A DNA stretch of 64,000 bases, taken from positions 2,274,001 through 2,338,000 of the forward strand of contig NZ_CP053562.1 of NCBI RefSeq assembly GCF_002085925.2, in the 5' to 3' direction. A model generated the notes under the pieces. It saw only the letters and a program-made list of their open reading frames with translations. It did not search any database and was not told the origin of the DNA. The first letter of the stretch is position 1, and every line of letters starts with the position of its first letter. Below, piece after piece: positions 2,696 through 22,536 of the stretch. The position numbers were made by a program, and so were the translations under genes. This DNA comes from Thioclava electrotropha. GTDB taxonomy: Bacteria > Pseudomonadota > Alphaproteobacteria > Rhodobacterales > Rhodobacteraceae.

Positions 2696-4036
2696 TCAGC
2701 AGGTCAGATCGTTCCAGAGCCCGAAGACCATCAGCGTCAGTACCAGCGCCAGCCCGATCGACATGAAGACGTTCATCAGCTGATCGGAGGGCGGCTTGCC
2801 CGTGATCGCCTCGTAAAGGTGGAACATCAGATGCCCGCCATCGAGCACCGGGATCGGGAAGAGGTTCAGGAAGCCCACCGCCGTCGACAGAACCGCGATA
2901 AACCAGATGAAATCGAGCACGCCCGATTTCGCCGCCGCCGCCGAGGTCTCGGCAATGCGCAGCGCGCCGGTCAGGTTACAGCTCGAGATCCGCTGCGCGA
3001 TCATCGCCTGAATGCCCGAGACCGATTGCGTGATGATACCCCAGGTCTGCCGCGCGCCGCCGACGATTGCATCGACCGGGCCCACCGATTGCGTCACCGG
3101 CTCGAACATGAATGAGCCTGTCGCCCCGATAAGGAAACGCGTCTCGAACTGCCCGTCACCCACCGGCAGATCGGTGCGGCGCGGCGCCAGCGTCACGGAG
3201 AACGTCTCGCCGCCATCGCCCTCGGGCCGCCAGATATCGAGCGAGACCGCCTTGCCCTCGCCTGCCTTCACCGCGTCCTGCAGATCGACGAAGCGATAGA
3301 CCGGTTTGCCATCAATCGCGGTGATCACATCGCCCGCGCGCAGACCGGCATCATACGCAGCAGAGCCCGGCTGAACGCCCGCAAACCGCGCCGGGAAGAG
3401 CTGCGGCCCCGTCGCGTCGGTTTTGCTTCCGTCGCGGGTCACGGTGTAATCGAGCGTCGGCCCTGCGGGCAACTGGTCGACCACATCGGAGAGCGCCTGA
3501 TAATCCGGCGTAGGCTTGCCCGCCACCGCGTCGATCACGTCGCCCTGCTGCAGATCGCCCGACCCGCCGGGCAGCGCGACGACGGTCTGGATCGCGGGCG
3601 TCTCGGTGGCCTGCCCCGTCCAGAGGCTCAGCCCCGCGATCACGCAGATCGACAGGATGAAGTTGAAGACCGGCCCGGCCGCCACGGTCGCCGCGCGCGC
3701 CCAAAGCGGCGCGCCATGCATCGTGTGGCGGCGTTCCTCGGGGCTCAGATGGGCCATTTCCTCGGAGTCGACCCCGGCCGAGGCCGCATTCGCATCGCCC
3801 AGAAACTTGACGTAGCCGCCAAGCGGCACGGCGGCGATCTGCCAGCGCGTGCCATGCTTGTCGACGCGGCTTATCAGCTTCGGCCCGAAGCCGAGCGAGA
3901 AGACCTCCGCCTTGATCCCGGAAATCCGCCCGATGATGTAATGGCCGTATTCATGCACCGCGACGATGATCGAGAGCGCGACGACGAAGGCCACAACCGT
4001 ATAGAGCAGATTGCCGAATTGGGGCAGCAGGTCCAA
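2696..4036 (-). CDS. rseP: RIP metalloprotease RseP (site-2 protease)
   Basis: An intramembrane zinc protease of the M50B/site-2 family, 446 aa, which cleaves anti-sigma factors and leftover signal peptides in the inner membrane. The HEYGH zinc motif lies in the first transmembrane segment (residues 28-32), and the second metal-ligand motif (NLFPIPVLDGGH) lies near residue 395. Two PDZ-like regions occupy the middle (around 130-215 and 215-300), and a final hydrophobic segment closes the protein. Its ATG lies three bases after the dxr stop, so the two are co-transcribed and probably translationally coupled. Length and motif order are normal for the family. Confidence 0.96.
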   Translation of the reverse strand: MDLLPQFGNLLYTVVAFVVALSIIVAVHEYGHYIIGRISGIKAEVFSLGFGPKLISRVDKHGTRWQIAAVPLGGYVKFLGDANAASAGVDSEEMAHLSPEERRHTMHGAPLWARAATVAAGPVFNFILSICVIAGLSLWTGQATETPAIQTVVALPGGSGDLQQGDVIDAVAGKPTPDYQALSDVVDQLPAGPTLDYTVTRDGSKTDATGPQLFPARFAGVQPGSAAYDAGLRAGDVITAIDGKPVYRFVDLQDAVKAGEGKAVSLDIWRPEGDGGETFSVTLAPRRTDLPVGDGQFETRFLIGATGSFMFEPVTQSVGPVDAIVGGARQTWGIITQSVSGIQAMIAQRISSCNLTGALRIAETSAAAAKSGVLDFIWFIAVLSTAVGFLNLFPIPVLDGGHLMFHLYEAITGKPPSDQLMNVFMSIGLALVLTLMVFGLWNDLTC

Positions 4037-11846: not shown

Positions 11847-11955
11847 TGGTCTTCCTCCCAGATTGAACGCAACCGACAGGGCTGCGCGCCATGGGATAAG
11901 CCTGCCGAACCGCGCGCCCTGCGCATAGCCGCTCTGCGCTGGTGGAATGCATCAT

Positions 11956-11975
11956 CTGTCTCGCGCCTGAGACAG
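11956..11975. promoter_or_regulatory. 20-bp palindromic operator upstream of the aldehyde dehydrogenase
   Basis: CTGTCTC-N6-GAGACAG is a perfect 7-bp inverted repeat whose centre is about 119 bp before the aldehyde dehydrogenase ATG. An identical half-site pair with the same 6-bp spacer occurs at 22517-22536 upstream of the GAF-Fis regulator. The form fits binding by a dimeric Fis-type helix-turn-helix protein. The assignment to that protein is inference. Confidence 0.7.
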
Positions 11976-12111
11976 GTGCAGCCGCAGCATTGAGATTTTG
12001 CCGGGGCGCTGAGACTATCGAAGACGGCGTGTGTCGCGCGCGTCAGGAAGCGAAGTCCTGAGACGAGTCGAGATCGCGACGGCAAGTCGTTCGGGGACGG
12101 CCCGAGCCGGA

Positions 12112-14492
12112 TCAGAAACGCGCCGTCCATCCCAGCGAAACCCCCATCGCCGAACTCTGCCCCGGCTCGTAGACGAGCCCCGCACCGAGTCGCCCGATCC
12201 CGGCCTTGCGCGAATAGCCGATCTGCAGGTCGGGCTGAGGGGCCGCACTTTCGATATTCACCGAGGCTGTCGTCATCACGACCTTTTCGGAGCGCGTATT
12301 TCCGACGGCTGCGCCGACAGCGGTCGGAACGCTCATCGTCAATTTCCCCGAGGCCAGCGCGATCGGCGTAGAAACCCCGACAGAGAGGCGGTCGTCCCCG
12401 GTCAGAAAACCGGTCTTGCTCAGGCCAATGGCATAGGCGTTCGACCTCAGCCCGCTCCCGGATTGGAGCAAACCGTTCCCGGAGAAGCTGGAGTTGCCAT
12501 TCGCTGCGGTAAGCTCGAGAGTCGTCCCGTCGCCGAGAGCGACATTCATCCCGAGCTGTACGAAATGGGTATTGCTCGAAAGCCCGCCGCCAAACGCGCC
12601 CCCCACCGAGGTGCCCAGGAAACCGCCGTCTTCGTGCAGATTGCCGACGGTCATCGAAAGCGTGCTGGCGCCGAACCGGGCATTGAGCGAACCGGCGATA
12701 TATTGCGAGCTAACATCGCCCGCGCCGCCGCCTGCCTGCGAAATCGAGGCCGATACGCCATCGCCGAGACCGACTTCGTAGTGAAGCGCGGAGTCGGTGT
12801 CGAAAGACTTCAAATAAGGCGCGGCCATCGCGGCACTGTCGACCCATTTCGTTCCGGCAATCGCGGAGCTGTCGCCATGTGACAGCGACAGGGTGCCGGT
12901 GCCCGCGCTGAAATTGACCGGAGCGGTCGCCCCCATCGCGAAAGTCTCGGTGGAGGCCTGCGCGGCGCGGGCATCGGCATAGTCGGCCACGAAGCTGCTC
13001 GCCGCCACGTGATAGCCGCGATCATAGGCATCCGTGACGATCATCCGCTGATTGGAGAGTGTCGCGCGCAGGGCGCCTGCGACACCGCGGGTTGCGCTGA
13101 TCGTGCTCTGGGTGGCGGGCACGGAAGGACCGTCGAGCGAGCTGGTCGTCTCGACTTTCAGCGTTCCGGCCGGTGCCTGAGCCTGCCGGAGATTGAGCTC
13201 GCCCCAGCCATAGATCGGGTCGATCCCCACCGCACCGAGATCGGTTGCGCTGTTTTCGAGGATCTGCACGATCTGCTGACCGGTGAGCTCGGGGAACTCG
13301 CTCTTGAGCACCGCAACCGCGCCGGTGACATAGGGCGTCGCCATCGAGGTCCCGCTCATATAGGCGTAATCGCTTCCAAGATCGCTCGGGTAGGTCGAGA
13401 GGATATCCACGCCCGGTGCCGCGAGGCAATAATTCATCGCCTCGCCACAGCGGTTGGAAAAACTGGCGATCTGGTGGTTGCTGTCAACAGCCACGACACC
13501 AAGGATCGAGCCTTCCATTTCCGGGAAATACTCCGGCAGGCCCGCCATCAAACTGGGATTGGCGCCGCCGTCATTGCCCGCGGCGAACACGCTGACCATT
13601 CCCGCCTTTGCCGCCGCGTCGAGCGAGTCGATGGTGGCCGATCCAAGCTGTTGGCGGATCTGGTCGGCGCTCGAAAACTGGTCGATCGTGAGCGTCTTGT
13701 TATTGCTGTCCACATAGGCCCAGCTGTTGTTCATCGATACCGCGCCGGCATTGACCGAGCGCGTGACCGCATCGGCGTAGCTGCCCGCAGGCACCGAACC
13801 TCCGACGCCTTGCAGGATCATCAGCTTGGACCCCAGGCAATCCCCTCGATCCCCTGCCCGTTCTGCACACCGGCAACGATCCCGGCCACATGCGTGCCGT
13901 GCCCGTCGGTGTCGGTGACGTCAGAGGTGTTGTCGAAATAGCTGTAGGAGAGCGCGCCATCGATGTTGTCAGCGAGATCGGGATGGGTCACATCCGCGCC
14001 GGAATCGTAGATCGACACGAGCGTTCCCAACCCATAGGCCCCCTCGGCGTAGCGATAGGCCGCCTCGGTCTGCGCAAGACCGCCGCTTGCATAATACTCG
14101 TCGGTCTCGAAACTGCTGACGCTGCCGCCAGTGCCGGTATACGGCGCGTTGCCCGAGGGCGGCGGCTGGGTGTTGCTCGAGGAGCCGGATGAGCTCGAGG
14201 ACCCGCCTCCTCCTCCCCCCGCAGCGGCGGCCAGCCCCACCACGCCAAGGCCAAGGAGCAAGAGCATGCTGTTGGAGCCGGTCACGGATGTCGTGCTGGC
14301 CGCGGCAGTATCCGCAGTATTTCCCGAAGCGGTGTCAGCCGAACCGGGCGCGGCGGCGGGAGCCTGCGCGAGTCCGTACGAGACCGTCGTGCGACCCGCG
14401 AGCGCGATCCGTTGAGTGAGATCCTGTGCATGCACCTGTGTGACGGCAAGCGAGGTCAAAGCCGTCGCCGCCAGAATACGTCCCATCGTCAT
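12112..14492 (-). pseudogene. Autotransporter subtilase (S8 peptidase) split by a frameshift
   Basis: A secreted serine protease of the type Va kind: signal peptide, S8 catalytic domain, then a C-terminal outer-membrane barrel ending in Phe (LGWTARF). The 5' part (14492-13821, 223 aa) carries signal peptide MTMGRILAATALTSLAVTQVHA, a second hydrophobic stretch, a Gly6-Ser linker, and catalytic Asp163 (YDSGAD) and His198 (DGHGTH). The 3' part (13821-12112) carries the oxyanion Asn in AGNDGG, catalytic Ser in SGTSMATP and the barrel. The frames join at 13831-13834, where a run of four G (minus strand) would restore AWGSKLMILQG if it were five. So either one G has been lost or the assembly has a homopolymer error; the two halves overlap as TGATG. 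The ATG at 14492 is chosen over a TTG one codon upstream, with AAAGGG as ribosome site. Restored length is about 795 aa. Confidence 0.85.
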
Positions 14493-14968
14493 CAAGATCC
14501 CTTTCGCGGAAAAATGCCTGCGTCGCGGAGGTCCGGTCTTCTTTTTGTCTGGATAGCCTCAGCGATACTGTGCTTCTCCCCTTGCTTCAACGACACTTGA
14601 GTTAAGCATCGGTTAAACGCGCTGGCATGTGTCGATAGCGACGCAGGGAGCCCTCGGAAAATTCATCAGGGCGCGCTTGGAAACGCAGTGGACACGGTGC
14701 GAAATCTCAATGTTTCTTGGCCCGCCTTAGCGAAGTCGCAGATGGCGGGACGTCGGATGCGCTGCGCCTCGCAAGCATGCCGGTCGCTTCGGATACACGA
14801 ACAATTGAAACGTTATCGCGGCGCTCGGTCGGGTTGCATCGGCCCCTTTCGGCACAATCTGCAGCGTAGCGGGTCGCGTACCGCGGCGCGCGACGTTGAG
14901 CGAACCGCGCGCATCTATGCGAGACGAGGCGGCCAAATGACCCGCGACTGAACCGCTTTGATCTGCGC
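14493..14968. other. 476-bp intergenic region, no supported gene
   Basis: This holds the upstream region of the autotransporter gene and the region downstream of the GNAT gene. Several open frames of 60-110 codons cross it, but none has a ribosome site, a recognisable domain or convincing codon structure. I see no strong hairpin with a T-run. Confidence 0.5.
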
Positions 14969-15787
14969 TCAACCAAGCTCCATCGTTGCGATGGCCTGCA
15001 AGGATGCCGTCGTCTTCGGAGCGGTGCCGCGATACATGCGCGCCGTCTCGAAAGCCGGGGTGAAGCCGCACTCCGACAGACGGGCCCTGAGTGGCGCGTT
15101 GCTCTCGGGCAGGTCGATCGAGACGGGCGCAGTCGGAAAGCGGTTCGCCGCGGCACGTGCCAGCCGCATCGCATCGTCACTCCGCTCGGCAATGATCGGC
15201 CCGATCTTGAGCCCCTCGCGACATTGCCGCACGGTCGCGAAGCCTGTGCCATCGCTGAGCCGGACGGTCTGACGGGATGGGCCGGGCGCGAGCCAGCGGC
15301 TCAGGAAAGCGTCCCGCCGCACGCCAGATGCCTGCGCATCGAGCGCAATGAGGTGCTTCAGGTCAGCATGCTCGGCCAGCACGATGCCCGTGTCGTCTTC
15401 GGGTGACAGCACCCCCGTCAGCCGCAAACTCGCGCCCTGACGTCGAAACCCGGAGCGCGCGTAATTGTCCTGCTGCGCGGCCACGCCATCGAGCCCGACG
15501 CTGCGCTCTCCTGAATGGCGCAGCGCATGTTGCCACAGGGCGAACCCGATGCCCTGCCCCCGGACTTCGGGTTTGCAGATATAGAGACCCAGGAACGCGT
15601 TTTTCGCATCGTGATTGACCACAGAAATCGCGGCAACAGGCGCGCCATCCACATCTGCGACAAAGAAGCCTTGGGGATCGGCTGCGTAGAACGCCTCGGC
15701 ATCCGCGAGGCCGGGATTCCAGCCCTCGGCGGCGGCCCAGTCGAGAACCGTCTCCAGCTCTGACAGATCGGCATTGCGCAGGATCAT
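14969..15787 (-). CDS. GNAT-family N-acetyltransferase with Acetyltransf_18-like C-terminal domain
   Basis: A 272-aa protein. Residues 1-130 form a GNAT domain with the acetyl-CoA loop seen in CKPEVRGQGIGFALWQHAL. Residues 140-272 resemble the second domain of YitH/HolE-like acetyltransferases and end with MYRGTAPKTTASLQAIATMELG. The ATG at 15787 overlaps the GntR stop by four bases (ATGA), so the two are translationally coupled. The frame is open further upstream, but homology starts at MILRNADLSE. The substrate is unknown; the neighbours suggest a role in handling the compound sensed by the GntR protein. Confidence 0.8.
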   Translation of the reverse strand: MILRNADLSELETVLDWAAAEGWNPGLADAEAFYAADPQGFFVADVDGAPVAAISVVNHDAKNAFLGLYICKPEVRGQGIGFALWQHALRHSGERSVGLDGVAAQQDNYARSGFRRQGASLRLTGVLSPEDDTGIVLAEHADLKHLIALDAQASGVRRDAFLSRWLAPGPSRQTVRLSDGTGFATVRQCREGLKIGPIIAERSDDAMRLARAAANRFPTAPVSIDLPESNAPLRARLSECGFTPAFETARMYRGTAPKTTASLQAIATMELG

Positions 15788-16470
15788 GCCCCCAACGCCT
15801 CCCTCAAGCTCGCAGGGGCGGAGGTGCGGTTTCGCAAGTCGAGCGAGCTGAGGAGGTCGAGAAGGTGGTTTTTCATCAGCTCCTCCGCCAAATCGGCATC
15901 GCGTTCCGCGAAGGCGCGCATCAAGGCATGGTGGGCGTGGCTTTCGCAAAGCGCCCCGCGCCGGTGCCAATAGAGCGCGATGATCAACGAAGACCGCGCG
16001 ACCAGCTGGGTGATGAATTCGGTGATCGTGGCCTGATCGGCAATCCGTGCGATCTCGAGATGGAACTGCCCCGAGAGAAAGAGCGCCCGGCCCGCCTCGC
16101 CATCGTCGATCGCCGCGTGCTCTTCATCGATGTGACGTTGAAGCGCCGCGAGGTCGTCCTCGGTGATCCGCTCGGCGGCCGAGCGCGCGGTGCGCGGCTC
16201 GAGCAGGGCGCGCGCCTCGAACACCTCGCGCGCCTCGCGCACCGTGGGCTGCGCGACATAGGCCCCGCGGTTGCGCTTGAGTTCCACCAGCCGGTCATGG
16301 GCCAGCCGCTGCAGCGCGGCGCGGATGATGGTCCGCGAGACACCGTATATCTCCCCCAGCTCCTCTTCCGACAGCTTTGTGCCCGGCATCAGCCGATGCT
16401 CGTGAATCGCGAGCGCCAGATCATTGGCGATCGTATCGGGCATCGGGGCGGCGGGGAGCGGGTCGTTCAT
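15784..16470 (-). CDS. GntR/FadR-family (FCD domain) transcriptional regulator
   Basis: A 228-aa regulator. The N-terminal winged helix spans about residues 10-75 (ALAIHEHRLMPGTKLSEEELGEIYGVSRTIIRAAL), and the alpha-helical FCD ligand domain covers about 85-215. FCD metal ligands are plausible at FHLEIAR and in SHAHHALMRAF. The ATG at 16470 is supported by AAAGGAACT; an upstream in-frame codon would run the gene through its own operator. It is divergent from an ABC importer operon, with a perfect ATTGTATACAAT operator in between, so it most likely represses that operon and itself until a ligand is present. Confidence 0.9.
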   Translation of the reverse strand: MNDPLPAAPMPDTIANDLALAIHEHRLMPGTKLSEEELGEIYGVSRTIIRAALQRLAHDRLVELKRNRGAYVAQPTVREAREVFEARALLEPRTARSAAERITEDDLAALQRHIDEEHAAIDDGEAGRALFLSGQFHLEIARIADQATITEFITQLVARSSLIIALYWHRRGALCESHAHHALMRAFAERDADLAEELMKNHLLDLLSSLDLRNRTSAPASLREALGA

Positions 16471-16540
16471 CTTGAGTTCCTTTCGTTCACACGATGCCCC
16501 GGGCGATCCGCGGAGGACAAGCTGGATCGCTTCGATTCGG

Positions 16541-16552
16541 ATTGTATACAAT
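16541..16552. promoter_or_regulatory. GntR/FCD-type operator ATTGTATACAAT
   Basis: A perfect 12-bp palindrome in the divergent spacer between the GntR gene (71 bp away) and the importer operon. TTGTATACAA-like palindromes are typical of FCD-type GntR regulators, so this is the likely site for the adjacent protein. Confidence 0.75.
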
Positions 16553-16574
16553 GTTGTGTCGTAATTTTGCGCAT

Positions 16575-16591
16575 GCAGAAAATTTTTCTGC
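16575..16591. repeat. 17-bp inverted repeat in the GntR/importer spacer
   Basis: GCAGAAAA-T-TTTTCTGC is a perfect 8-bp inverted repeat one base apart, 22 bp from the GntR-type operator and about 108 bp before the importer ATG. It could be a second regulator site or part of a promoter; no protein can be named. Confidence 0.45.
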
Positions 16592-16698
16592 TCAAATTCG
16601 AGGCAAGGTCGGATTCACGGCACCGTGAGTTCGGAAAATGATGGCGAGCTGTCCGGTTCGCACCGAAGGCTGAACCCAGATCAAAGGGAAGCGATGCG

Positions 16699-17673
16699 AT
16701 GCGAACGGCACATGATCTCGAGCTGGTGAACCTGACGAAGCGCTACGGCGACACGGTCGCGGTGGACGCGATCAATCATGTCTTCGCGCCGGGCAGCTAT
16801 GTCTGCCTGCTCGGTCCCTCGGGCTGCGGCAAGAGCTCGACCCTGCGGATGATCGCGGGCCATGAAAGCGTGAGCGAAGGCGCGATCCGCCTGAACGGCG
16901 TTGATATCTCCGCCCTGCCCCCGGCCAAGCGCGGCACGGCGATGATGTTTCAGAACTACGCGCTCTTTCCGCATCTCTCGGTCAAGGACAATGTCGCGTT
17001 CTCGCTGCGGATGAAGGGCGTCGACAAGACCGCGCGCCATGCCAAGGCGATGGAGCTTCTCGAACTCGTCGATATGGCGCATCTCTCCGAGCGTCTTCCC
17101 ACGCAGCTCTCCGGTGGGCAGCAGCAACGCGTCGCGCTGGCGCGCGCGCTGGTCACCGAACCGGAAGTACTGCTTCTCGACGAACCGCTTTCCGCGCTCG
17201 ACCCCTTCCTGCGGGTGCGGATGCGTGCCGAGCTCAAGCGGCTGCAGCGCGAGCTCGGCATCACCTTCCTTCATGTCACCCACGGGCAGGACGAGGCGCT
17301 CGCGCTCGCCGACGAGGTCGTGGTCATGAACAATGCCGTCATCGAACAGGCCGGACCCGCACGCGAGGTGTTCAACACGCCCCGGACCGAATTCGTGGCG
17401 CGCTTCATGGGCGGCCACAACGTGGTCACGCTCGACGGGCAGCTCCATGCGATCCGCTCGGATGCAGTGCGCCTTGGCCCCGAGGGGATGCCCGCGACGG
17501 TCAGTGCGATCGAATATCAGGGCGACCGCGTCGCGGTAACCGCCCAGGCCGAGGGCCAGGAACCGATCATCGCGCTGATGAGCGACGAGGCCTTCTATTC
17601 CAACGACATAAACCCGGGCGAGCAAGTGCGTCTTGCTTGGGATGAGGGGCGGCTGCACCGCCTCCGTGCCTGA
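16699..17673 (+). CDS. ABC importer ATP-binding protein, PotA-like
   Basis: A 324-aa ATPase of the polyamine/iron/sulfate (CUT1-MOI) importer family. Walker A is GPSGCGKSS (about residues 40-48), the Q-loop is [11 protein letters not shown], the signature is [15 protein letters not shown], Walker B is [11 protein letters not shown], and the switch His is in [16 protein letters not shown]-like C-terminal region follows (about 240-324). The AAAGGGAAG site favours the second of two close ATGs (16694 and 16699). It is the first gene of a five-gene unit with a Tat-exported binding protein, two permeases and a racemase. Confidence 0.92.
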
Positions 17674-17704
17674 AATCGACACTCCAACAGAGGGATAAGT
17701 GACA

Positions 17705-18970
17705 ATGTCGAAAACCGGTTATACCCGCCGCTCGATTCTCAAGACCGGGGCGGCCGCGCTTGGCGCCTCCGCCTTCCCGGCGCCGATGATCTGGGCGCAG
17801 GAAATCAAGAACATCACGCTGCGCCAGTTCGGCACGGGCGTGTCGAACCTCAATGACGTGGCCAACAAGGTGAAGGAAGACCTTGGCTTCACGCTCGAGA
17901 TGACCGCGCTCGATTCCGACGCGGTGACCCAGCGCGCGGCAACCCAGCCCGACAGCTTCGACATCGCCGATATCGAATACTGGATCTGCAAGAAGGTCTG
18001 GCCGACCGGCAACCTGCAGGCGATGGATACCTCGAAGATCAAGAATTACGACAAGATCGTCGGCATCTTCAAATCCGGCAAGCTGACGCCCGAGAGCGAG
18101 ATCGCCCAAGGCACCGCGCCGTCGACCGTGGGCTTCGTCGAGGGCCCCGGCGGCACCACCTTCGCCGATCAGGAAACCGGCTGGATGACGCTGATCCCGA
18201 CCATCTACAACGCCGACACGCTGGGCATCCGCCCCGACCTGATCGGGCGCCCGATCGAGAGTTGGACGGAACTGCTGAACCCCGAGTTCAAGGGCAAGGC
18301 TTCGATCCTCGACATCTCCTCGATCGGCATCATGGACATGGCCATGGTCTGCGAGGCGATGGGTGAGATCCAGTATGGCGACAAGGGCAACATGACCCGC
18401 GAAGAGATCGACAAGACCATGGCGATCTTCACCGAGGCGAAGAAGAACGGCCAGTTCCGTGCCTTCTGGAAGACCTTCGACGAGAGCGTGAACCTGATGG
18501 CCTCGGGCGAGGTCGTGATCCAGTCGATGTGGTCGCCCGCGATCACCGCGGTGAAATCGCGCGGCATCGATTGCGTCTACCAGCCTCTGAAAGAGGGCTA
18601 TCGCAGCTGGGGCGGCGGTCTCGGCCTGTCGAAGTCGCTCTCGGGCATGGAGCTCGATGCGGCCTATGAATACATCAACTGGTATCTCTCGGGCTGGGTC
18701 GGCGGCTACCTGATGCGTCAGGGCTATTACTCGGCCGTGCCGGAAACCTCGAAGGACTTCATGTCCGACAACGAGTGGGGCTACTGGTTCGAAGGCAAGC
18801 CCGCGACGGATGTGATCACCAGCCCGACCGGCGACAAGCTGGCCGAAGCCGGCGAGACCCGCGACGGCGGCTCTTTCTACGACCGCATGGGCCATGTCGC
18901 GTGCTGGAACGCAGTGATGGACGAGAACCAGTACATGGTTCGCAAGTGGAACGAGTTCATCGCCTCGTGA
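17705..18970 (+). CDS. Extracellular solute-binding protein family 1 (PotD-like), Tat signal
   Basis: The 421-aa periplasmic receptor of the importer. The N-terminus has a twin-arginine signal (TRRSILKTGAAALGASAF) and cleavage is likely after MIWA. The body has the two-lobed type II binding-protein layout seen in spermidine/putrescine and related receptors, such as SFDIADIEYW near residue 80 and VIQSMWSPA in the second lobe. A GTG two codons upstream is an alternative start; the ATG at 17705 has better spacing to GAGGGATA. A hairpin repeat follows the gene before the permeases. The ligand cannot be read from the sequence; the racemase in the operon suggests an amino acid or hydantoin-like compound. 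Confidence 0.9.
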   Translation: MSKTGYTRRSILKTGAAALGASAFPAPMIWAQEIKNITLRQFGTGVSNLNDVANKVKEDLGFTLEMTALDSDAVTQRAATQPDSFDIADIEYWICKKVWPTGNLQAMDTSKIKNYDKIVGIFKSGKLTPESEIAQGTAPSTVGFVEGPGGTTFADQETGWMTLIPTIYNADTLGIRPDLIGRPIESWTELLNPEFKGKASILDISSIGIMDMAMVCEAMGEIQYGDKGNMTREEIDKTMAIFTEAKKNGQFRAFWKTFDESVNLMASGEVVIQSMWSPAITAVKSRGIDCVYQPLKEGYRSWGGGLGLSKSLSGMELDAAYEYINWYLSGWVGGYLMRQGYYSAVPETSKDFMSDNEWGYWFEGKPATDVITSPTGDKLAEAGETRDGGSFYDRMGHVACWNAVMDENQYMVRKWNEFIAS

Positions 18971-18978
18971 TGACCGTG

Positions 18979-19030
18979 GTGGGGCTATCCGCCCCCCACA
19001 CCCCCCGAGGATATTTGAGCCAAGTCGAAG
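18979..19030 (+). repeat. Dispersed hairpin repeat, copy A (one hairpin plus tail)
   Basis: A GTGGGG / CCCCAC stem-loop is followed by the tail CCCCCGAGGATATTT, then CCAAG and CGAAG. The same tail occurs at 37441-37470 and, reversed, at 49731-49752. Here it sits between the binding protein and the first permease and may reduce read-through or stabilise the upstream message. Confidence 0.65.
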
Positions 19031-19042
19031 GGCAGGATCGCG

Positions 19043-19900
19043 ATGAAAGTGACCCGCGAGACGGTGACGGGATGGTTGCAGGCGGCGCCCCTGACGGTGG
19101 TGTTGCTGGGCTTTCTGGTCGCGCCGATCATTACCATCGTGATCGTCAGCTTCTGGCAGGCGACCGAGTTTTCGATCATCCCCGCCTTCAGTCTTGAGAA
19201 TTACGAGTTCCTGTTCGGCTCGCCGGTGACCTACAAGGTCTTCGCCGCGACCTTCAAATACGCCTTCCTGACCTGGGCGATGACGCTCGCGATCGGTTTC
19301 ACCGTCGCCTATTACCTCGCCTTTCACATCCGCAGCCAGACGATGCAGATCGCGCTGTTTTTGCTGTGCACGATCCCGTTCTGGACCTCGAACATCATTC
19401 GCATGATCTCGTGGATCCCGTTCCTCGGGCGCAACGGGATTGCGAACCAGACGCTGATTTCATGGGGCGTGATCGACCAGCCGCTGGAGTGGCTGCTCTA
19501 TTCCGATTTCTCGGTGATCCTCGCCTTCGTGCATCTCTACACGCTGTTCATGGTGGTGCCGATCTTCAACACGATGATGCGGATCGACCGCAACCTGATC
19601 GAGGCGGCGCGCGACAACGGTGCGAGCGGGTTCCAGACGCTGGTCCATGTGATCATCCCGCTGACCAAACCCGGCATCATGATCGGCACGATCTTCGTGC
19701 TGACGCTGGTGATGGGCGATTTCATTACCGTGCGGTTCATGTCCGGGTCGCAGCGGGCCAATGTGGGGCGGCTGATTTCCAACGATATCGCGCTGCTGCA
19801 ATACCCCTCCGCGGCCGCCACGGCGGTGGTGCTGCTGTGTACCGTGCTGATCGTGATCGGGATCCTGCTGCGCTTCGTCAACATCCGCAAGGAGCTCTGA
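19043..19900 (+). CDS. ABC importer permease, PotB-like
   Basis: A 285-aa inner-membrane permease with about six transmembrane segments, starting with a hydrophobic helix near residues 14-36. The coupling-helix EAA motif is EAARDNGASGFQTLVHVIIPLTKPG (near residues 190-215). It is 3 bp from the second permease, and the two presumably form the heterodimeric channel fed by the PotD-like receptor. The start is taken at 19043 behind AGGGCAGGA. Confidence 0.92.
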   Translation: MKVTRETVTGWLQAAPLTVVLLGFLVAPIITIVIVSFWQATEFSIIPAFSLENYEFLFGSPVTYKVFAATFKYAFLTWAMTLAIGFTVAYYLAFHIRSQTMQIALFLLCTIPFWTSNIIRMISWIPFLGRNGIANQTLISWGVIDQPLEWLLYSDFSVILAFVHLYTLFMVVPIFNTMMRIDRNLIEAARDNGASGFQTLVHVIIPLTKPGIMIGTIFVLTLVMGDFITVRFMSGSQRANVGRLISNDIALLQYPSAAATAVVLLCTVLIVIGILLRFVNIRKEL

Positions 19901-19903
19901 TCC

Positions 19904-20740
19904 ATGGAGAAACGCCCGCGCAGCTTCTACGTCCTGACCGTCATCTTCGCGCTTTTCGTGCTGTTCCTTTACGGGCCGACGATCACCATCGGCATCCTGA
20001 GCTTTCAGGGCCCCGAGGGCGGGCTGACCTTCCCGATGCGGGGCGTGTCGCTCAACTGGTTCCACGAGCTGTTCCAGCAGCAGGCCGTGGGCGATATCTG
20101 GGGCGCGTTCCGGCGGTCCTTCATGCTCGGCCTGCTGGTCATGGTGACGACGGTCGTCGTCTCGGTCATGGCGGGCCTCGCATTCCGCAAGAAATTCCCG
20201 GGCTCCGGCATTCTGTTCTACCTGACGATCGCCTCGCTGGTGATCCCCTCGATCCTGATCTCGCTGGGCGTGGGGCTGATCTTCAACCAGCTCGGGCTAA
20301 AGGTGCATTGGGCGACCTCGGGCTTCGGCTCACAGCTGACATGGACGCTGCCCTTCGGTCTTCTGATCATGTTCGCCGTCTTCAACCGTTTCGACAAAAG
20401 CTTCGAGGAGGCCGCGCGCGATCAGGGTGCGAGCGCATGGCAGACGATCCGTTTCGTCGTGCTGCCGATCATCGCGCCGTCGCTGATCGGGGTGGCTCTG
20501 TTCGGCTTCACGCTGAGCTATGATGAATTCGCGCGCACGCTGTTGACGGCGGGCAGCTACAACACGCTTCCGCTCGAGATCTTCGGGATGACGACGAATG
20601 TGACGACGCCCGTGGTCTATGCCCTGGGCACGCTGACCACGATGTTTTCGCTTCTGATCATCGGGGCGTTCTTGGTCGCCGCCTGGATCATGGCACGGCG
20701 GCGCGCACGGCTCGGCTCGGATGCCGGGAAAGGCGTTTGA
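19904..20740 (+). CDS. ABC importer permease, PotC-like
   Basis: A 278-aa inner-membrane permease with about six transmembrane segments. The EAA loop reads EAARDQGASAWQTIRFVVLPIIAPS (near residues 165-190). The conserved FTLSYDEFARTLLTAG that follows is typical of PotC-like subunits. Upstream and downstream gaps are 3 and 6 bp, so it is firmly in the operon. Confidence 0.92.
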   Translation: MEKRPRSFYVLTVIFALFVLFLYGPTITIGILSFQGPEGGLTFPMRGVSLNWFHELFQQQAVGDIWGAFRRSFMLGLLVMVTTVVVSVMAGLAFRKKFPGSGILFYLTIASLVIPSILISLGVGLIFNQLGLKVHWATSGFGSQLTWTLPFGLLIMFAVFNRFDKSFEEAARDQGASAWQTIRFVVLPIIAPSLIGVALFGFTLSYDEFARTLLTAGSYNTLPLEIFGMTTNVTTPVVYALGTLTTMFSLLIIGAFLVAAWIMARRRARLGSDAGKGV

Positions 20741-20746
20741 TCCCAG

Positions 20747-21397
20747 ATGCGCATTCTCTACATCAACCCGAATTCGACGGCGTCGATGACCGATCAGATC
20801 GTGGGCATCGCGCGGGCAGCACTACCTGACGCCGAGATCGTCGGCTGGACGAATGCGGAAGGGCCGCCCGCCATTGAGGGGCCCGAGGATGGTGCGCATG
20901 CCGTGATCGGGCTGAAGAAACTGTTGCCGGAGGCGAAGGGGATTGGCGCCGATCTGATCGTGATCGCCTGTTTCGACGATACTGGGCTCGAGGAGCTGCG
21001 CGCCGCCGCGCATTGCCCGGTGATCGGGATCGGTCAGGCCGCCTATGTGATCGGCGCGCTCGCCTTCGGGGCGTTCTCGGTGGTGACCACGTTGCCGGTA
21101 TCCGTGCCGGTCCTCGAGGAGAATATCGCGCAGTACGGGCTTGCGGGCGCGTGCATCGCGGTGCGCGCGAGTGGCGTGCCGGTGCTGGCCGTCGAAGAGG
21201 GATCAGAGCCGGTCCGCGCGCGCCTCTCCGAGGAGATCGCCGAAGCCGGGAAGGAAGGCGCACGGGCTGTTGCGATGGGATGCGCAGGCATGTCGCATTT
21301 GCGCGCCGATCTCTTCGAGAGAACCCGCGTTCCGCTGATCGACGGGGTCATCGCCTCGGCGCATCTGGCGCGGGCGATCCGGGCGACCCTGAATTGA
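20747..21397 (+). CDS. Asp/Glu/hydantoin racemase family protein
   Basis: A 216-aa protein of the aspartate/glutamate/hydantoin racemase superfamily (PF01177 fold). The start MRILYINPNSTASMT is typical of hydantoin racemases. The two catalytic cysteines are in IACFDDTG (near residue 75) and MGCAGM (near 180). It begins 6 bp after the second permease and is the last gene of the importer operon, so it should act on the imported compound, for example racemising a 5-substituted hydantoin or amino acid. No hydantoinase or carbamoylase gene is nearby, so the pathway is open. Confidence 0.87.
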   Translation: MRILYINPNSTASMTDQIVGIARAALPDAEIVGWTNAEGPPAIEGPEDGAHAVIGLKKLLPEAKGIGADLIVIACFDDTGLEELRAAAHCPVIGIGQAAYVIGALAFGAFSVVTTLPVSVPVLEENIAQYGLAGACIAVRASGVPVLAVEEGSEPVRARLSEEIAEAGKEGARAVAMGCAGMSHLRADLFERTRVPLIDGVIASAHLARAIRATLN

Positions 21398-21446
21398 GAT
21401 CAGAAGCGTCCCTGAGGGCGAAGCACCCTGCCCGTTCCCCTGCCGC

Positions 21447-22516: not shown

Positions 22517-22536
22517 CTGTCTCGGGGGTGAGACAG
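22517..22536. promoter_or_regulatory. 20-bp palindromic operator upstream of the GAF-Fis regulator
   Basis: CTGTCTC-N6-GAGACAG, identical in half-sites and spacer length to 11956-11975. It is centred about 108 bp before the regulator ATG and just after the rlmE stop. An outer CTGAGC / GCTCAG pair (22501-22506 and 22542-22547) could extend it to a long stem in RNA. Confidence 0.7.

Follow-up and report, generated by a model that had tools for sequence, protein, structure and literature searches.

Regulators of the AcoR and DhaR kind have an N-terminal GAF domain and a C-terminal Fis-type helix-turn-helix (HTH), and carry an AAA+ sigma-54 domain. EatR of Pseudomonas aeruginosa, which has a role in ethanolamine use, a process in which ExaC also acts, is likewise annotated as a sigma-54-dependent regulator. 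The closest described system is EtgR/etgABC of Paracoccus denitrificans. According to its published account, a Fis-family gene lies directly ahead of an ExaC-type aldehyde dehydrogenase (ALDH) gene and controls alcohol and aldehyde oxidation (PMC12214560). The same account reports that a mutant lacking etgR cannot grow on ethylene glycol, barely grows on ethanol and no longer shows reporter induction, and that the etgR/etgA intergenic region is a working promoter driving an alcohol-induced reporter (PMC12214560). EtgR is described there as ‘Fis family’, with residue numbers up to 266, and structure 9fm9 is that of EtgA from P. denitrificans (PMC12214560). The terms ‘inverted repeat’, ‘palindrome’ and ‘TGTC’ are absent from the main text of the paper (PMC12214560).

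A comparable pair of genes occurs in Thioclava electrotropha, within a stretch of 64,000 nucleotides that was analysed as a whole and is here called the window (Table 1). Two palindromes, one upstream of each gene, are very probably operators of the GAF-Fis protein encoded there, an EtgR-like relative of AcoR and DhaR without an AAA+ domain that would activate exaC, whose product removes toxic aldehydes, and control itself. This operator reading draws on the sites, their conservation, their co-occurrence with the regulator, their spacing and their covariation with the recognition helix. The original prediction, in which the GAF-Fis protein controls itself and the ALDH through the palindromes, is well supported by sequence comparison, own-gene control being the less secure part. 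The palindrome would be a newly recognised operator for regulators of the EtgR kind, in a gene arrangement whose partners have been parted. No other account of this regulator or motif was found among the papers listed by literature searches, which is no proof of absence.

Table 1. Positions in the window of the regulator, its predicted target and the associated sites.
Feature	Position	Strand	Basis and remarks
exaC, NAD-dependent acetaldehyde dehydrogenase, 508 aa	10320..11846	-	NCBIfam NF050026
Possible exaC 5'UTR hairpin, CGCAGCC-CTGTC-GGTTGCG	11868..11886	-	Read from sequence
Palindrome A, predicted exaC operator	11956..11975	.	Exact match; coding strand CTGTCTCAGGCGCGAGACAG
DNA between regulator and exaC control region	11976..21446	.	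Open reading frames; junctions approximate
GAF-Fis regulator (EtgR-like), 323 aa	21447..22418	-	Pfam; GAF 73-200, Fis-type HTH 279-317
Palindrome B, predicted operator of the GAF-Fis regulator gene	22517..22536	.	Exact match; coding strand CTGTCTCACCCCCGAGACAG

The nearest characterised counterpart of the window regulator is the activator EtgR, a likeness based on gene order and on the match to EtgA. The dehydrogenase is called as an ExaC equivalog (934.9 bits against a cut-off of 900), and its best PDB match is 9fm9, at 900 bits. The window differs from the described etgR locus in the distance of about 9.6 kb that separates regulator and exaC, where etgR and etgA adjoin, and in having a second site ahead of the regulator. 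On a plasmid of P. albus (L138), the genes follow in the order regulator, ALDH, AdhP, topoisomerase and DUF779, with an exact palindrome between regulator and ALDH. There are relatives in which a DUF779 gene comes after exaC; none was found in the Thioclava genome. Gene order suggests that EtgC is a DUF779 protein. No P. denitrificans protein is named among the best 120 of 1493 and the best 120 of 2164 protein matches, and none of the Paracoccus-type proteins checked (P0115-P0238) has both D193 and V266.

The likeness to AcoR-type relatives, drawn in the original prediction, does not hold in full. Both GAF and Fis-type domains are common to AcoR, DhaR and the window regulator, but no AAA+ domain is found in the latter (Pfam; no match to PF00158), and it is not a full AcoR-type sigma-54 activator. 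At about 320 aa, with a GAF domain, a Fis-type HTH and no AAA+ domain, it has the composition sought in an EtgR-like protein. The DhaR model aligns with residues 25-210 at 67 bits, far under its cut-off of 551. EatR, unlike the window regulator in its sigma-54 annotation, aligns with a Paracoccus GAF-Fis protein, P0115, over residues 6-207 of the latter at 35.6% identity (hit H90). The genome also encodes an AcoR-like protein, P0239, which matches sigma-54 domain models in part and is 34% identical to the regulator over 244 N-terminal residues. Control of the palindromes by P0239 appears unlikely and was set aside, given its different recognition helix (VNRSTILRR, against IGRATFYRK in the window regulator). 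In an AlphaFold2 model of the regulator (mean pLDDT 89.9), the last HTH helix spans residues 309-318 and includes Tyr313, numbered from the alignment, in the helix sequence GRATFYR.

The sequence CTGTCTC-N6-GAGACAG is present with 0 mismatches at both places where it had been noted, and palindromes A and B share the same half-sites and the same six-base spacer length. The distances to the genes are shorter than first given: palindrome B lies 98 rather than 108 bases from the GAF-Fis ATG (22418), and palindrome A 109 rather than 119 bases from the ALDH ATG (11846). Palindrome B is also 7 bases from the stop codon of rlmE. Across the whole genome (4,395,474 bases), TGTCTC-N6-GAGACA has two exact copies, palindromes A and B, so the claim of no other full copy, made by eye for the window, is correct genome-wide. 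The motif search that the original prediction had proposed finds both exact copies at the promoters of exaC and the regulator. A backwards-read control pattern has 0 exact copies in the genome. A single further copy carries one mismatch (C1:716436); it reads GGGAGGAG on its strand, 4 bases upstream of an ATG, and looks like a Shine-Dalgarno coincidence. Allowing up to two mismatches yields 78 hits for the motif and 40 for the control pattern, which leaves weak matches with little meaning. The window holds 2 matches at up to three mismatches, against a shuffle mean of 2.71 (76 of 100 shuffles reach 2), a chance-level count, but both matches are exact.

Conservation among relatives was assessed at 88 loci, after removal of redundancy on the basis of the C-terminal 150 residues of the regulator. 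In 77 of these, the window included, exaC lies downstream of the regulator, and the following counts use the 76 others. A site could have no more than one mismatch in either arm, and both T and G were allowed at the variable base. Between regulator and exaC, 67 of the 76 loci have an exact site, each arm being either TGTCTC or TGTCGC, and 74 have one within one mismatch, whereas two control patterns score 0 and 2 of 76 at one mismatch; when two mismatches are permitted, these controls climb to 15 and 12 of 76. The two loci without a site are L139, in which one arm has decayed, and L170. Plasmids of Hyphomicrobiales and Sphingomonadales have the same regulator-palindrome-exaC arrangement (15 of 125 matching plasmid records examined).

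The motif and the regulator also occur together. Among 120 genomes of the family, one per genus, 17 have both the exact motif and a short GAF-Fis protein (E below 1e-45), 7 have the motif alone, 6 the regulator alone and 90 neither (Fisher p 1e-10). The two tallies were joined by the handles G000-G119 and agree wherever both list a genome; in two of the 17 genomes (G063 and G077), the motif copy lies away from the regulator. The same 120 genomes contain 24 exaC genes (E up to 1e-150). A palindrome is found upstream of all 20 that share a genome with the regulator, with 0-4 mismatches to the T form, the one with 4 mismatches being a perfect G-form palindrome. It is absent from all 4 exaC genes in genomes without the regulator (best 5-6 mismatches), a contrast confounded by lineage since these genes are more distant (70-73% identity). 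In a class-wide search, the regulator was found in 6 of 337 genomes, that of Thioclava electrotropha included.

At most fetched loci of the family, exaC directly follows the regulator with one palindrome between them, often 0-20 bases past the regulator stop. In Thioclava pacifica and T. marina (L077, L078), both palindromes are present and the two genes adjoin, with none of the intervening DNA between them. Thioclava sp. JE_KL1 and T. sediminum (L076, L079) resemble the window in having other genes after the regulator. Palindrome B has an exact counterpart at the same place in all four of these Thioclava loci (L076-L079) and in Pseudothioclava (L083). Immediately before palindrome A, the sequence agrees with that of T. 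marina at 11 of 12 bases and then diverges, so the intervening DNA lies just outside the control region. This DNA encodes an S8-type autotransporter, a GNAT protein, a GntR-FCD regulator, an ABC transporter operon and an Asp/Glu racemase, three of which were named by Pfam and the others by reading. The S8-type (subtilisin-like) autotransporter seemingly consists of two overlapping minus-strand frames (13821-14495 and 12112-13821), as judged from translations. Four genomes have the genes apart and keep the site at exaC: the window genome (9.6 kb), G046 (about 6 kb), G225 (about 5 kb) and G016 (2.2 kb). Given its wide occurrence, adjacency looks like the older arrangement and the 10-kb separation like a derived state.

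Sites ahead of the regulator are less common. An exact site is present there at 10 of 88 loci and one within one mismatch at 15 of 88, compared with 0 of 88 for both controls; the other 73 have no upstream site at one mismatch or less. Autoregulation is therefore less secure than control of exaC, as most relatives have no upstream copy. All 10 exact copies fit the class of the regulator’s own recognition-helix residue; 3 of the 5 one-mismatch copies do so, and 2 (L018, L044) do not.

Other genes may also be targets of the regulator. At 11 regulator loci, the stretch examined contains no exaC. In 7 of these, the surroundings of the regulator hold no site at one mismatch or less, though two of the 7 genomes (G046, G225) have a site at a distant exaC. 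G046 has a further exact site ahead of a c-type cytochrome gene. In G082 (L029/L158), exaC is replaced by genes that were named by reading as CoxG-like, 2Fe-2S and molybdenum oxidoreductase genes, preceded by the regulator and an exact site. On an Agrobacterium plasmid (L148), a one-mismatch site separates the regulator from a divergent Mo-oxidoreductase/cytochrome operon. Methylocystis has a second site, likewise with one mismatch, which stands between the regulator gene and one for a PQQ alcohol dehydrogenase. Further exact sites are found before a TolC-like gene (G186), inside an open reading frame with no Pfam match (G077) and in G063 and G193; these four may be due to chance.

Two further plasmid loci were noted in passing. 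In Rhizobium sp. CB3090 (L146), an exact TGTCGC-type palindrome (3951-3968) follows a GAF-Fis gene with no exaC, and the next annotated gene encodes a YoaK/DUF1275 protein. In Paracoccus sp. Arc7-R13 (L137), eutBC, the GAF-Fis gene, an exact palindrome, exaC, DUF779, a cysteine hydrolase gene and acs (on the opposite strand) lie together. This gene set runs from ethanolamine ammonia-lyase to acs, that is, from ethanolamine to acetyl-CoA, beside the same predicted operator.

The family site takes two forms, depending on the group: CTGTCTCA-N4-TGAGACAG or CTGTCGCA-N4-TGCGACAG. Where the recognition helix has Tyr, both arms carry T in 52 of 55 exaC sites, the remainder being mixed (2 G/T and 1 C/T). 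Where it has His, at least one arm carries G in 20 of 20 exaC sites, and both arms do so in 15. In the tree-based test set, residue and operator agree in 79 of 82 sites, a set that includes two 2-mismatch sites (L162, L172) that are probably chance. A tree built without the HTH has 2 residue changes and 4 operator changes. The covariation, which has the look of a contact rule, thus goes back to one or two independent events; the independent pairs for the Tyr/His switch (1 on starred branches, 2 on all) are too few to reach significance. Searches for further His-type genomes yielded one genome each.

The spacing of the site to a -35-like element is also conserved at many loci. A -35-like TGAC core begins 28 or 29 bases past the site at 42 of 74 loci, while the next commonest offset occurs at 2; the sites of L024 and L141 are self-complementary, and these counts, like those of the leader hairpins below, use the correct strand. 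With the usual spacer, this offset places the palindrome centre near -73. Activators that contact RNA polymerase from the upstream side typically bind at such a position. At the window’s two promoters, no -35-like element and no sigma-70 promoter could be recognised. Seven loci of the Thioclava group have a GGCTATGCA-like sequence near the matching place. A sigma-54 promoter was considered, with scores that differ little from those of shuffles: a crude -24/-12 consensus reached at least 8/12 in 26 of 75 exaC upstream regions and in 21 of 75 shuffled ones (one shuffle each), with L024 and L141 taken on the wrong strand.

The leaders of exaC contain a second recurrent element. In 41 of 74, a hairpin with a Shine-Dalgarno-like loop (GGAGG/GAGGAG) precedes the real Shine-Dalgarno sequence, about 30 bases before the ATG (L111, L184, L043, L114, L036 and others), compared with a mean of 1.6 and a maximum of 5 over 50 shuffles; the rule for counting it was devised after the leaders had been inspected. 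Stem sequences differ greatly among loci, and an Rfam search with three of them matched no family. A function as a standby site or as the target of an sRNA is possible for this hairpin. In the window exaC leader, a stem is possibly left, with CTGTC as its loop, which is not Shine-Dalgarno-like. This hairpin is perhaps a degenerate form of the one seen in relatives, and it is missing from the minimum-energy structure of the entire leader.

In the proposed mechanism, a dimer of the regulator would bind the 20-bp site, C-TGTCTCA-N4-TGAGACA-G in its family form, through two Fis-type HTHs, while the GAF domain would sense an alcohol or aldehyde signal. The bound protein would activate exaC from a site centred about 73 bp before the presumed transcription start, a class I-like arrangement involving the house-keeping RNA polymerase, and would control its own gene through palindrome B. 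In this Thioclava lineage, some 9.6 kb would have come between the two genes, leaving the regulator to act on exaC at a distance.

A first alternative is that the GAF-Fis protein binds the same sites as a repressor and is relieved by aldehyde. Sites before a regulator’s own gene are indeed common for repressors. The position of the palindromes points the other way: where a -35-like TGAC is present, it follows the site by 28-29 bases and is not overlapped by it. Loss of growth and of reporter induction upon etgR deletion, as given in the EtgR account, also argues for activation (PMC12214560). Repression is accordingly an improbable reading.

Slightly less probable still is that another, unlinked transcription factor binds the palindromes, with the GAF-Fis gene a mere fellow member of its regulon. 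In most relatives the site lies between both genes, so adjacency alone cannot name the binder. Several observations nevertheless favour the GAF-Fis protein itself. Exact site and regulator co-occur across genera, the site is missing at exaC in all four regulator-less cases, and the operator base follows the recognition-helix residue. Moreover, at some regulator loci that lack exaC, a site persists ahead of other genes, exact in L029/L158 and L146 and with one mismatch in L148.

That the palindromes act instead as RNA hairpins, in a terminator or attenuator, has very little probability. Under this explanation palindrome B would end the rlmE transcript. In its favour, palindrome B lies close to the rlmE stop codon, and the sites of relatives are often found just past the regulator stop. 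However, no terminator-like site coincides with palindrome A or B, the one detected lying elsewhere (12121-12137). The arms are conserved in sequence and not in pairing alone, and they keep a fixed spacing to the -35-like TGAC; the terminator or attenuator was therefore rejected. Coincidence is next to impossible: the chance-level window count at three mismatches and the 18-mer in 7 of 120 genomes without a detected regulator speak for it, but both matches are exact and lie at promoters, and relatives conserve them in corresponding positions.

As operators of the GAF-Fis protein, the palindromes would give EtgR-type activators, relatives of which occur in many Alphaproteobacteria, a precise predicted operator. 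Activators of this type govern ethylene glycol and ethanol oxidation in P. denitrificans, which makes them relevant to the upcycling of plastic monomers. The Thioclava locus presents a regulator and its predicted target that have been parted in the genome while the DNA site was retained. A broader proposal, for and against which the chances appear evenly balanced, is that a single recognition-helix residue, Tyr313 in the window regulator and either Tyr or His among its relatives, distinguishes T from G at one base of each half-site, TGTC[T/G]C. These AcoR relatives without an AAA+ domain would then possess a simple DNA code and activate ordinary promoters from a fixed upstream position. If true, it would suggest a one-residue recognition rule for Fis-type HTHs, and the operator would allow genes of alcohol and aldehyde oxidation to be mapped from genome sequence throughout Alphaproteobacteria, those for the Mo- and PQQ-type enzymes replacing or joining exaC included.
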